A DNA stretch of 64,000 nucleotides from Enteractinococcus fodinae (GTDB taxonomy: Bacteria; Actinomycetota; Actinomycetes; Actinomycetales; Micrococcaceae): assembly GCF_031458395.1 (NCBI RefSeq), contig NZ_JAVDYJ010000001.1:1860001-1924000 (forward strand), given 5' to 3'. Under the pieces are notes generated by a model that worked only from the letters and a program-made list of their open reading frames with translations, did not search any database and was not told the DNA's origin. Both the position numbers and the translations under genes were made by a program. How positions within the stretch are numbered: the first letter of the stretch is position 1; every line of letters starts with the position of its first letter. Shown piece after piece: positions 9,370-57,565 of this stretch.

Positions 9370-9448
9370 GTGGAAAGACTCCTTCATACCTTCAAGGGGT
9401 CTTCTCAACGCCCGTCTGCCGCGCAGCTAATGACGTGCGCGAAGACCC
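9369..9448 (-). promoter_or_regulatory. Expression platform of the metY riboswitch with competing stems
   Basis: On the minus strand GGGTCTTC (9448-9441) can pair perfectly with GAAGACCC (9404-9397). The same right-hand segment continues as GACCCCTT and can instead pair, with one mismatch, with AAGGAGTC, which contains the metY Shine-Dalgarno. The two pairings cannot coexist, so ligand-dependent masking of the ribosome binding site is a plausible mechanism. No U-tract terminator is seen. This is a structural inference from base complementarity. Confidence 0.6.
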
Positions 9449-9472
9449 GCGCTTGTCTCAATTTGTCATGAG

Positions 9473-9556
9473 ACCTGGTCCTCACCCGGGGCACCCCACC
9501 GCGGTGGAGGGTTGCCGGTCAGTAAGCCGGGGCATATTTACTGACACTCGTGACCA
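9473..9556 (-). ncRNA. SAM-IV riboswitch aptamer
   Basis: Read on the minus strand, the segment begins GGTCACGAGTGTCAGTAAAT, continues through GCCCCGGCTTACTGACCGGC, AACCCTCCACCGCGGTGG and GGTGCCCCGGGTGAGGACC. This follows the actinobacterial SAM-IV consensus from memory almost base for base, including the closing GGTCA/TGACC-type P1 and the CGCGG loop region. SAM-IV elements are known upstream of methionine and sulfur genes in Actinomycetales, and metY follows here. A further GTCTCA..TGAGAC hairpin (about 9454-9473) sits just downstream of the core. Confidence 0.93.
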
Positions 9557-16794: not shown

Positions 16795-18267
16795 TTAGCC
16801 GATCTTTTCCAGGATAATTTCGCGAACCTTGCCGGCATCGGCTTGACCCTTGGTGGCCTTCATGACGGGACCGATCAGCGCGCCCACGGCCTTCATGTGC
16901 CCGTCTTTAATGCGCTGGACGACATCGGGGTTGGCTGCCATTGCTTCGTCAACCGCACTGGACAGCGCGCCATCATCCGAGACCACAGCTAGCGAGCGAG
17001 CTTCGACGATCTGCCCGGGACGGCCTTCTCCGGCAGCAATGTAGCCCACGACCTGGCGGGCGATCTTGTCGTTGATGGTGTTGTCGGCAATCAACTGCTC
17101 GATTTCGACCACATCGGCGGGCGTGACACCTAGGGCTTCTGGGGAGACGCCTTCTTCGTTGGCCAGGCGGGCGATTTCGCCCATCCACCATTTCCGTGCG
17201 GCTTCCGGGGTCGCCCCGGCGCTGACGGTTTGTTCGATTTCGTCAAGGATCCCGGCAGCGACCACATCGCGGAACTCAGTCTCGGAGAACTGCCATTCGT
17301 CGCGCAGACGGCGACGACGCTGCACCGGGTTTTCTGGCAGATCGGCCCGGAGCCGATCAATCCACGCCTCATCGGTGACGATCGGCACCAGATCGGGGTC
17401 TGGGAAGTACCGGTAGTCGTCGGCGTCAGATTTTGGTCGCCCGGAACGGGTGGACCGGTTTTCCTCGTCCCAGTGTCGGGTTTCTTGGACGATGGTTTCG
17501 CCCGCGTCCAAGGCTTTGGCCTGCCGGATGATCTCGGATTCCACGGCGGCGGCCACCGCACGGGTCGAGTTCACGTTCTTGGTTTCGGTGCGCGTGCCAA
17601 AGGTTGTTGATCCGATGGGCATCAGCGAGACGTTGGCGTCACAGCGAATATTGCCGCGTTCCATGCGCGCATCGGATACGCCCAGCGCTTTGACGATGTC
17701 GCGGATCGTGGCCAGGTAGGCGCGAGCCAATTCTGGGGCTCGCTCGCCGGCACCGGTAATCGGTTTGGACACGATCTCAACCAGTGGTACCCCGGCCCGG
17801 TTGTAGTCCACCAGTGAGGCCGAGGAGTTATGAATACGGCCGGTCGAGCCGATGTGGGTGAGTTTGCCCGCATCTTCTTCGATGTGGGCGCGTTCAATTT
17901 CGACCCGGAAGATTTCCCCGTCATCGAGTTCGACATCGACATAGCCGTCGTAAGCGATCGCGGGTTCTTCTTGCGAGGTCTGATAATTTTTGCCCAGATC
18001 CGGGTAGAAGTACTGTTTGCGAGTGAACCGTGACTCTGGTGCGATAGTGCAGTTCAGCGCCAGTCCCAGCTTGATGCCGTAGTCGATACCGGCAGCGTTA
18101 ATGGTCGGCAGCGTACCGGGGAGCCCAAGGTCTCCGGGGGTCACGTTGGAGTTTGGTTGGTCTCCGAAGGCGTTGGTCGCGGTGGAGAACATTTTGGTTG
18201 TGGTGTTGAGTTCGACGTGGACTTCAAAACCCAACACGGGTTCGTAGGTTTGTAAAGCGGTTTTCAT
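16795..18267 (-). CDS. gatB: Asp-tRNA(Asn)/Glu-tRNA(Gln) amidotransferase subunit B
   Basis: GatB phosphorylates mischarged Glu-tRNA(Gln)/Asp-tRNA(Asn) and transfers ammonia onto it. The 490-aa protein is complete. YEPVLGFEVHVEL holds the conserved Glu and His. IERAHIEEDAGKLTH and SLVDYNRAGVPLVEIV hold the acidic Mg/ATP residues, and the C-terminal YqeY-like tRNA-binding tail runs from about residue 335. The zinc cysteines of some GatB proteins are absent (MFSTATNAF, NVTPGDLGLPG), as I recall for other Actinobacteria. Its ATG overlaps the gatA stop (ATGA). GatB looks functional while its partner GatA does not. Confidence 0.95.
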   Translation of the reverse strand: MKTALQTYEPVLGFEVHVELNTTTKMFSTATNAFGDQPNSNVTPGDLGLPGTLPTINAAGIDYGIKLGLALNCTIAPESRFTRKQYFYPDLGKNYQTSQEEPAIAYDGYVDVELDDGEIFRVEIERAHIEEDAGKLTHIGSTGRIHNSSASLVDYNRAGVPLVEIVSKPITGAGERAPELARAYLATIRDIVKALGVSDARMERGNIRCDANVSLMPIGSTTFGTRTETKNVNSTRAVAAAVESEIIRQAKALDAGETIVQETRHWDEENRSTRSGRPKSDADDYRYFPDPDLVPIVTDEAWIDRLRADLPENPVQRRRRLRDEWQFSETEFRDVVAAGILDEIEQTVSAGATPEAARKWWMGEIARLANEEGVSPEALGVTPADVVEIEQLIADNTINDKIARQVVGYIAAGEGRPGQIVEARSLAVVSDDGALSSAVDEAMAANPDVVQRIKDGHMKAVGALIGPVMKATKGQADAGKVREIILEKIG

Positions 18268-19535
18268 GATGCTGCTCCTGCCGATTCGACAACGGCGCTG
18301 ATGCGATAGACCAGTTCATCTGCATAGGTTGGTGCGGAAATGTGGACGCCGGCCACACTGGCGGCGGGTAGCCCGGCAAGAGACGCCCCCACGCCCGGGT
18401 TAGTGGAGTCGTATTCGGCGCCCTGGATGGTCGCGGCGGGCACGGCGAGCGCATCTACCGTGTCAAACGCGGCGTTGTGGTCGTTGATGACGGCCGTGCG
18501 GACGCGCTGGGCCGGGTAGAAATGCGAGGTGATGGTGCCCGAGGACAGCAACTGCGTGCCCAGGATAATCCGACGTTTGGTCTCGTAGCCAAAACCGGCC
18601 CCGCGCGAGGCCATGATGACGTCTTGCATGGTCGCGTTGTCGGGGGTGACGCGGTTGCCGAAGCGGATGCCATCAAATTTGGCTAGGTTGGCGGAAAATT
18701 CGGCCGCACCGATGATGTGGGTGGCTTGGCGTGCCTGTTCCAGGGACTCCAGGGTGACCTCGGTGGTCGTGACACCGGCACCTTCCAGTGCGGCAAGACC
18801 GTTTTGATACAGGGCCCATGCGCCGTCGTTGACGTCTACGGGCTGGGCTGTGATGACACCAATGGTGAGGCCCGCAACATCGGAGGAACTGTCGAGGTCC
18901 CACTCGTAGTGCAGACTCGTGGGGTCTTGGGCGTCAGGTCCGGCGAGAAGTGCATGCAGCGCTTTGGCATCCGCCGTGTTCCGGGCAATCGGGGTGATGG
19001 TGTCCATGGAGGACACGGCGGCTACCAGACCGTATCGGGAGATGGCCCCGTAGGTCGGTTTGACGGCGACGACACCGGTTTTTGCGGCGATGTGCCGGGC
19101 TGTGCCGGCGGTATCGGAAACCACCGCGAACGGGGCCTGGTGGTTGCTCACGGCCTGGTGTGCACCGGATTCTTCGCCGATACCAAATTCGGAGACGGTC
19201 GCTTTGCCTAAAATAGGCAGTCCGGCTGCGCGTAAGCGGGTCACGACGGTGGCCTCATACGGCGACACCCACCCGGCGAGGTAGTCGGAACCGGCCTCGG
19301 TGGGCATGTCAGCGGTGACGATGACATCGGATAACACGACGGGGACCCCGGCCAGCGGATGATCGTATTTGCCGGCGTCTACGTCGGCTGCCACGGCCAG
19401 TGCATCATCGGCGTTGACGTAGGCGTAGGCGTCGGAGCCAGCATCGAGGTGTGCGGTGACCAGTTCCACTGCGGTGGTGTCACCGGCACGCAGTTGTGCC
19501 GCCATTTCGGTGGCGGTCAGGTGGGTAAGCGACAT
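18264..19535 (-). CDS. gatA: GatA homologue lacking the amidase catalytic triad
   Basis: By position (gatC-gatA-gatB, overlaps of 1 and 4 bp) and by fold this is GatA. PTYGAISRYGLVA, RFDGIRFGNR-like FDGIRFGN, ASRGAGFGYETKRRIILGT and AQRVRTAV all match the family. It is only 423 aa against about 480-510. The catalytic Lys (family GI/VKD) is Ser69 in AGVPVVLSD. The Gly/Ser-rich signature loop carrying the cis-Ser is deleted around residues 131-138. The nucleophile motif TGGS reads TAGT (Thr145). The segment near the C-terminus that carries the glutamine-binding Asp is also missing. The frame is open throughout, so this looks like a maintained pseudoenzyme rather than a decayed gene. Ammonia release from glutamine should be lost. 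Confidence 0.85.
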   Translation of the reverse strand: MSLTHLTATEMAAQLRAGDTTAVELVTAHLDAGSDAYAYVNADDALAVAADVDAGKYDHPLAGVPVVLSDVIVTADMPTEAGSDYLAGWVSPYEATVVTRLRAAGLPILGKATVSEFGIGEESGAHQAVSNHQAPFAVVSDTAGTARHIAAKTGVVAVKPTYGAISRYGLVAAVSSMDTITPIARNTADAKALHALLAGPDAQDPTSLHYEWDLDSSSDVAGLTIGVITAQPVDVNDGAWALYQNGLAALEGAGVTTTEVTLESLEQARQATHIIGAAEFSANLAKFDGIRFGNRVTPDNATMQDVIMASRGAGFGYETKRRIILGTQLLSSGTITSHFYPAQRVRTAVINDHNAAFDTVDALAVPAATIQGAEYDSTNPGVGASLAGLPAASVAGVHISAPTYADELVYRISAVVESAGAAS

Positions 19536-19801
19536 TATTCTCCGTCCAGAATCGCAGGGACCATGAATTGACCGTCTTGAGCTTCAGGGGCCCCCGAGAT
19601 GGCTTGTTCAGTGGTGAGTTCGTTGGCGACGGTGTCGTCGCGTAGCACGTTGTTGACCGGCAGCGGGTTGACGGTTGCAGGCAGCTGTGGATCAGCGGTC
19701 AACGTAAGGGACTCGATGATCGGATCGAACTCAGCGGCAAGTTTGGTGCGCTCGTCTTCGGTGAGCGCGATATGTGCGGTTGCGGCAATGTGCTCAACCA
19801 T
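19535..19801 (-). CDS. gatC: Asp-tRNA(Asn)/Glu-tRNA(Gln) amidotransferase subunit C
   Basis: This 88-aa GatC stapler subunit wraps around GatA and GatB and stabilises the complex. It keeps the N-terminal helix (VEHIAATAHIALTEDE) and the C-terminal family pattern (NVLRDDTVANELT then ISGAPEAQDGQFMVPAIL). It is slightly shorter at the N-terminus than usual. Its stop overlaps the gatA ATG by one base (TAATG). Twelve bases separate it from the upstream GNAT gene, so it belongs to the long leftward operon. Confidence 0.93.
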   Translation of the reverse strand: MVEHIAATAHIALTEDERTKLAAEFDPIIESLTLTADPQLPATVNPLPVNNVLRDDTVANELTTEQAISGAPEAQDGQFMVPAILDGE

Positions 19802-57441: not shown

Positions 57442-57493
57442 GGAGATCTCACCTTTGATCGTAAGACGCTATTTCTCAACCGCGTTGCGGCAG

Positions 57494-57565
57494 TTCCGCC
57501 CCTAGGATTCGAACCTAGACCACACAGCTCCAAAGGCTGGCGTGCTGCCATTACACCAGGGCGGA
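57494..57565 (-). tRNA. tRNA-Gln (anticodon UUG)
   Basis: On the minus strand a 72-nt cloverleaf starts TCCGCCC and ends GGGCGGA plus discriminator A. The anticodon loop reads CTTTGGA, giving TTG, and the T-arm is CTAGG-TTCGAAT-CCTAG. CCA is not encoded. The U1-A72 pair occurs in tRNA-Gln of both direct-charging and transamidation bacteria, so it does not discriminate between routes. It lies upstream of glmU. Confidence 0.95.

Follow-up and report, generated by a model that had tools for sequence, protein, structure and literature searches.

The window analysed here is a stretch of 64,000 nucleotides from the genome of Enteractinococcus fodinae, an assembly of 2.93 Mb in a single contig. Its minus strand carries, from position 19801 to 16795, gatC, gatA and gatB as one open unit in which the genes overlap at their starts and stops. 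In the textbook view, GatCAB depends on glutamine and has two sites that a tunnel connects. The GatA encoded in the window lacks the catalytic triad of the glutaminase site, and we refer to the three genes as gatC-d, gatA-d and gatB-d and to their predicted complex as GatCAB-d. The gatA-d open reading frame (ORF) begins with ATG and has no internal stop. Its start shares one base with the stop of gatC-d (TAATG), and its own stop overlaps the start of gatB-d by four bases (ATGA).

GatC-d scores 50.3 bits against TIGR00135, above the cut-off of 47.1, and thus belongs to the GatC equivalog. A start about 10 residues later than in canonical GatC is seen in all eight genomes that carry the triad-less unit. 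GatB-d likewise belongs to its equivalog. It lies above the cut-off (in brackets) of four of the six GatB models that it matches, with scores of 793.4 (653) for NF004013, 438.6 (314.8) for TIGR00133, 538.9 (338) and 501.3 (414), and below the cut-offs of NF004011 and NF004015. Twelve of 13 motif positions are as in canonical GatB, the other being a change of Thr to Ser. Glu15, His17, Glu130, Glu131, Glu164, Asn231 and Ser234 are retained in all eight copies of GatB-d; matched by motif to yeast GatB as described in an excerpt of PMC4027206, they appear to be the metal and ATP residues.

GatA-d matches the amidase-signature family PF01425 in two stretches (139.6 and 69.8 bits, cut-off 27). Against the GatA model TIGR00132 it reaches 267.4 bits (271.1 for the Yaniella halotolerans protein), below the cut-off of 481.1, and it therefore falls outside the GatA equivalog; a normal GatA encoded elsewhere in the same genome scores 564.8 bits. 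The predicted structure of GatA-d has a mean predicted local distance difference test score (pLDDT) of 87.2 and a predicted template modelling score (pTM) of 0.89, and its nearest entries in the PDB are GatA chains. The template modelling (TM) score is 0.87 by query length against 9a62, an integrative model, and 0.86 by query length and 0.76 by target length against the crystal structure 2df4 (root mean square deviation 4.9). In this model GatA-d retains the amidase-signature fold of GatA.

Loss of the glutaminase site in GatA-d

Glutamine-dependent transamidation requires the Ser-cisSer-Lys triad of GatA. We take the catalytic and glutamine-binding residues of Staphylococcus aureus GatA to be K79, S154, S178, Y309, R358 and D425. 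The yeast counterparts, as given in an excerpt of PMC4027206, are S154-cisS130-K52, D418 and R334. Mapped through the Y. halotolerans protein, positions 69, 145, 272 and 322 of GatA-d correspond to K79, S178, Y309 and R358 of S. aureus.

We compared 70 canonical GatA sequences with the eight triad-less ones, that of the window included. After a length filter, 57 of 71 outside GatA sequences and 51 of 60 outside GatB sequences were used in the alignments; the GatB of one outside genome (G022), a fused ORF, was left out, and one genome of the genus (G007) had no full GatB and so is not in the GatB alignment. The triad and the glutamine-binding Asp are missing from all eight triad-less proteins. 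The family Lys (69 of 70 canonical sequences) is Ser or Ala. Most of the PGGSxGGS loop (P162-G167 in the normal copy) has been removed; the aligner places this deletion of 23 columns after residue 123 and HMMER joins it at residue 120, and either way the cis-Ser position has no Ser. DTGGS has become DTAGT, with Thr in place of the nucleophilic Ser (canonical in 69/70). The Asp of the C-terminal ND..T.PANLAG motif is Thr or Ala, and the segment around it is shortened and altered. The Tyr at position 272 is also lost, and Arg322 is retained. Because the same losses are common to eight separate assemblies, sequencing error or chance was ruled out as their cause.

These results bear out what an earlier note, made from the letters of the window alone, had described: an open gatCAB unit with start-stop overlaps, a GatA of 423 aa with Ser69 for Lys, a deleted cis-Ser loop, TAGT for TGGS and no glutamine-binding Asp, and a GatB with its key Glu and His residues. 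The note had also suggested aligning GatA from related genera, and the losses proved to be common to eight of the nine genomes of the genus.

The rest of the unit is conserved to different degrees. With a conserved GatB column defined as one at least 95% conserved among 62 canonical GatB sequences, GatB-d retains 102 of 107 such columns (in at least seven of eight rows). GatA-d retains 71 of 122, counted in the same number of rows, and the 51 lost columns include all the named triad and glutamine-site positions except the Arg. At 58 columns, GatA-d is invariant for a state that no more than two of the 70 canonical rows share; these include the start Met and a column in which most canonical rows have a gap. 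His126, His273 and His338 are among them (Table 1).

Table 1. Features of the window, by position on the forward strand
Feature	Position	Strand	Remarks
gatC-d	19535..19801	-	88 aa; N terminus ~10 residues shorter than in relatives
gatA-d	18264..19535	-	423 aa; amidase-signature fold without catalytic triad
gatB-d	16795..18267	-	490 aa; kinase/transamidase subunit
Ser69 codon	19329..19331	-	replaces catalytic Lys (S. aureus K79); alignment
Deletion junction, codons 123/124	19164..19169	-	removes Gly/Ser loop with cis-Ser; alignment
His126 codon	19158..19160	-	new invariant residue (canonical Ala 69/70); alignment
Thr145 codon	19101..19103	-	replaces nucleophilic Ser (S. aureus S178); alignment
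His273 codon	18717..18719	-	new invariant residue (canonical Tyr 67/70, S. aureus Y310); alignment
His338 codon	18522..18524	-	new invariant residue (canonical Tyr 69/70, S. aureus Y374); alignment
Codon 378	18402..18404	-	site of lost glutamine-binding Asp (canonical Asp 69/70)
tRNA-Gln (TTG)	57493..57565	-	first pair U1-A72; presumed substrate; sole tRNA gene ARAGORN found in the window
SAM-IV riboswitch	9444..9555	-	102.4 bits

Selection on the unit

Ratios of nonsynonymous to synonymous substitution (dN/dS) were estimated by NG86. Over 28 pairs of triad-less units the medians are 0.091 for GatC, 0.091 for GatA and 0.037 for GatB, compared with 0.147, 0.110 and 0.120 over six pairs of the normal copies of the genus. 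In the same six species pairs, where a few NG86 comparisons are saturated, dN is 0.031-0.065 for GatB-d versus 0.060-0.235 for normal GatB, and 0.053-0.170 for GatA-d versus 0.069-0.211 for normal GatA. Two gatA-d copies differ by 364 substitutions, of which 69, 49 and 246 fall at codon positions 1, 2 and 3; when 364 substitutions are placed at random, the frame stays open in 3 of 5000 trials. Judged from these patterns of substitution, gatCAB-d is under purifying selection.

Distribution and ancestry

The triad-less GatA occurs in eight of the nine genomes of the genus (Yaniella/Enteractinococcus) among 59 genomes searched, the window's own included, at 75-81% identity. Besides the window genome (G000), the carriers are the metagenome-assembled genomes (MAGs) Yaniella sp. 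38_S52 (G001), Candidatus Y. excrementavium (G002), Micrococcaceae MAG KG10 (G004) and Candidatus Y. excrementigallinarum (G008), together with the type strain Y. halotolerans DSM 15476 (G003), E. helveticum (G005) and E. coprophilus DSM 24083 (G006). The only member of the genus with no match, G007, is an assembly 71% complete that shows the normal copy alone. Across 395 genomes of the family, searched with at most four candidates scored in each, eight have a triad-less GatA at 838 bits or more; the next-best match reaches 320 bits, as an ordinary GatA does. A scan for the pattern in 84,980 species, possibly omitting the window's own genome, gave seven full relatives among the best 80 of 96 matches. 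All seven are of this genus (six Yaniella or Enteractinococcus and one Micrococcaceae MAG), and the remaining 73 are 30-38% identical. The carriers are a small group of bacteria from soil, litter and faeces.

In a sample of the phylum, GatA scores above the TIGR00132 cut-off in 384 of 393 genomes that are at least 98% complete; six have no match and three a weaker one. The sampled genomes without a match are G530, G553, G574, G595, G749 and G766, and G429, G463, G515, G615 and G653 have a weak best match. There may be other losses of GatA in the phylum among these.

The surroundings of the triad-less unit are conserved. ligA (NAD-dependent DNA ligase), an inositol monophosphatase gene, a GNAT gene and a gene labelled f6 flank it in all eight genomes, and DAO, an FAD oxidoreductase gene downstream of gatB-d, in seven, the exception being G004. 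All five also lie at the gatCAB of an outside genome (G024) whose GatA is normal, with one extra gene between gatB and DAO. DAO was considered as a source of ammonia and dropped because it also lies near this normal gatCAB and does not adjoin the triad-less unit in G004. The GatB tree, in which G022 is represented by the final 505 residues of its ORF, separates the triad-less copies (100/100) from the genus's normal copies (98/96), each set forming a clade of its own. Support for the fork that unites the triad-less clade with G024 is 93/92, which is below the starred level. Base composition is similar between the triad-less and normal units. As far as gene order and trees tell, the triad-less unit is the housekeeping gatCAB that the genus has inherited vertically, at its ancestral ligA-linked locus.

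Species in which the triad-less unit stands alone

A second, complete gatCAB with intact motifs and a GatA of 517 aa (L001) lies elsewhere in the window genome, and a normal gatCAB accompanies the triad-less unit in G004, G005 and G006 as well. The normal operons (L086, L087, L088, L090) occupy one site in G000, G005 and G006 and another in G004, whose normal and triad-less units share a contig and are about 35 kb apart. The other four carriers (G001, G002, G003 and G008; hereafter the degenerate-only genomes) each have exactly one GatB match, adjoining the triad-less GatA, and a normal GatA was not found in them. Their completeness is 97%, 88%, 100% (6 contigs) and 99%, respectively. No gatCAB was found beside the RibD-like neighbour of the normal operon in G003, G008 and G004; in G001 the contig stops about 0.8 kb past the RibD-like gene, and in G002 the match is cut by a contig end.

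The degenerate-only species are probably not one clade. In the LigA tree, G004, which has both copies, nests among them; the five group together at 98/99, the fork leaving G008 outside has 94/92, and no starred branch forces the placement of G004. The GluRS and AspRS of G004 are most similar to those of G001 (95% identity). The nesting of G004 is most simply read as two losses of the normal copy or as one loss with a regain.

All nine genomes of the genus have one class-Ic synthetase each, which in G003 is named GluRS by NCBIfam. Synthetases of the AspRS/AsnRS/LysRS class number two in seven genomes and one in the incomplete G002 and G007; in G003 and G008 they are named AspRS and LysRS by model. 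Searches of these synthetase classes gave no match to GlnRS or AsnRS in the four degenerate-only genomes (named by model in G003 and G008). With one GatB and no match to either synthetase, and given what is established about the indirect pathway, both Gln-tRNA and Asn-tRNA in these species should be products of GatCAB-d, with GluRS and AspRS presumably misacylating.

The earlier note had offered three ways to account for its triad-less GatA, and they fare differently. Direct charging of tRNA-Gln and tRNA-Asn by GlnRS or AsnRS was rejected, with one class-Ic synthetase and at most two of the AspRS/AsnRS/LysRS class per genome. A second functional GatA does exist in the window genome and in G004-G006 and was not found in the degenerate-only genomes. 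The use of another ammonia donor by GatB, with GatA as scaffold, is the best supported of the three because four relatives show the triad-less unit alone.

A proposed ammonia-using GatCAB with a scaffold GatA

We propose, with a probability of roughly 0.65, that GatCAB-d is an ammonia-using transamidase whose GatA no longer acts as a glutaminase and persists in a structural role. The proposal rests on the intact GatB-d, the kept fold of GatA and the behaviour of yeast GatFAB, which takes ammonium chloride as donor in vitro, a use that is raised by truncation of GatF in the segment supporting GatA (excerpt of PMC4027206). The loss of the site, the conservation of the rest, purifying selection, ancestral position and a sole GatB in four species with no GlnRS or AsnRS match can be read from the genomes; we infer that the complex is active, that free ammonia is its donor, and by what route the ammonia arrives. 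GluRS and AspRS would load tRNA-Gln and tRNA-Asn with Glu and Asp, and GatB-d would phosphorylate the side chain using ATP and then amidate it with ammonia. This ammonia would be drawn from the cell instead of being released from glutamine by GatA; its most likely way in would be the former glutaminase pocket, now opened up, together with the old tunnel between GatA and GatB.

The ecology of these bacteria agrees loosely with use of ammonia. The isolation of E. helveticum involved selecting for high ammonia tolerance, and the pH range for growth of Enteractinococcus is 7.0-11.0 (PMC4966478). In one study of poultry litter, seen in excerpt, Yaniella made up 3.1% of sequences from reused and 0.5% from fresh litter; the same paper also lists Yaniella units with fresh litter.

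Several observations weigh against the proposal. Three of the four degenerate-only genomes (G001, G002 and G008) are MAGs, and one of these, G002, is the assembly that is 88% complete. A normal gatCAB is present in five of the nine genomes of the genus, so the triad-less enzyme may not suffice everywhere. The facts on isolation and growth were obtained with Enteractinococcus, which has both copies, rather than with a degenerate-only species. According to an excerpt of PMC3376133, cells usually contain little free ammonia. No sequence feature identifies the donor. In G003 and G008 the model that AspRS matches is the ordinary bacterial one, with no match to the archaeal-type non-discriminating model.

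Of the alternatives, the one that survives best, which we consider unlikely, is that GatCAB-d is a working transamidase supplied with ammonia in trans by a separate amidase or glutaminase. A candidate amidase of 485-512 aa with the triad motifs (L103, L104, L105; 406-419 bits against PF01425) is present in three of the four degenerate-only genomes (G001, G003 and G008), and the five genomes with a normal GatA have no other PF01425 match that strong (Fisher one-sided 4/84, ignoring kinship). However, this amidase scores 346-364 bits against TIGR00132, below the cut-off, and by eye lacks the SSNLxRFDG segment conserved in GatA, which makes GatA-like docking unlikely. In G003 and G001 it adjoins an AmiS/UreI amide transporter, which fits a role in amide uptake. 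It was not found in G002, and G001 and G003 are close kin.

Slightly less likely still, a glutaminase or amidase site of another design could have been rebuilt in GatA-d, with Thr145, Asp141, His126, His273 and His338 as one possible set of residues. The three histidines, invariant in all eight proteins, replace Ala or Tyr present in 67-69 of 70 canonical sequences, there are many further new invariant residues, and the Arg equivalent to R358 is kept. Against such a site, the Lys, the cis-Ser, the Ser, the glutamine-binding Asp and the Tyr at 272 are all lost. It is quite improbable that the complex took a different job, with Gln-tRNA in the degenerate-only species made by some unknown route. 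The stem branch of GatB-d in the GatB tree is long (0.33 changes per column), which suggests that something changed in the ancestor, but GatB-d passes four of six GatB models with its residues kept, and the four degenerate-only genomes have no other GatB_N match and no second class-Ic synthetase.

Least probable is that the window copy is a decaying duplicate on its way out while the normal gatCAB does the work: the window genome and three relatives do have both copies, but the reading is largely contradicted by dN/dS of 0.09 and 0.04, by intact frames in eight species and by the failure to find a normal copy in four species, and we rejected it on dN/dS, same-pair dN and the random-placement frame trial. 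The earlier note would have seen decay in a normal GatA elsewhere combined with dN/dS near 1; the normal GatA is there, and dN/dS is about 0.09 instead.

A stronger version of the proposal can be entertained, to which we give somewhat less than an even chance. In several species of one clade, a GatCAB lacking a glutaminase might be the source of all Gln-tRNA and Asn-tRNA, with protein synthesis directly dependent on free ammonia, and the dead GatA might have been rebuilt, with its three new histidines, into an entry port for ammonia.

Relation to known systems

A natural triad-less GatCAB was not found in the literature searched for loss of catalytic residues and for ammonia use, a search whose coverage took in few subscription journals. 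GatCAB-d resembles the normal gatCAB in gene order, overlaps, GatB and GatC families, GatA fold and ancestral locus. It differs in having no triad, no cis-Ser loop and no glutamine-binding Asp, and its GatA, at 423 residues, falls 94 short of the 517 in the normal copy from that genome. If the proposal is true, GatCAB-d is a natural complex in which the glutaminase and transamidase halves are separated without mutagenesis, and from it one could learn which functions the GatA scaffold has apart from catalysis. Translation would rely on ambient ammonia for its supply of two amino acids.

Other enzymes offer partial parallels. Yeast mitochondrial GatFAB is alike in accepting ammonium chloride in vitro (excerpt of PMC4027206) and differs in that its GatA is an intact glutaminase. 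The single-domain NAD synthetase NadE uses free ammonia where its relatives use a glutaminase, according to an excerpt of PMC3376133; there the glutaminase is absent, whereas GatCAB-d keeps the dead subunit. If our reading is right, GatCAB-d also works like carbamoyl phosphate synthetase I (CPS1), in which, as an excerpt of PMC4655335 describes, an inactive ancestral glutaminase-like domain is kept and outside ammonia is used. As in CPS1, a glutaminase subunit without its catalytic residues is found under selection beside an intact synthetase, as judged by alignment and dN/dS. CPS1 belongs to an unrelated glutaminase family and serves the urea cycle rather than tRNA. GatCAB-d would then be the tRNA counterpart of the switch from glutamine to ammonia in carbamoyl phosphate synthetase.

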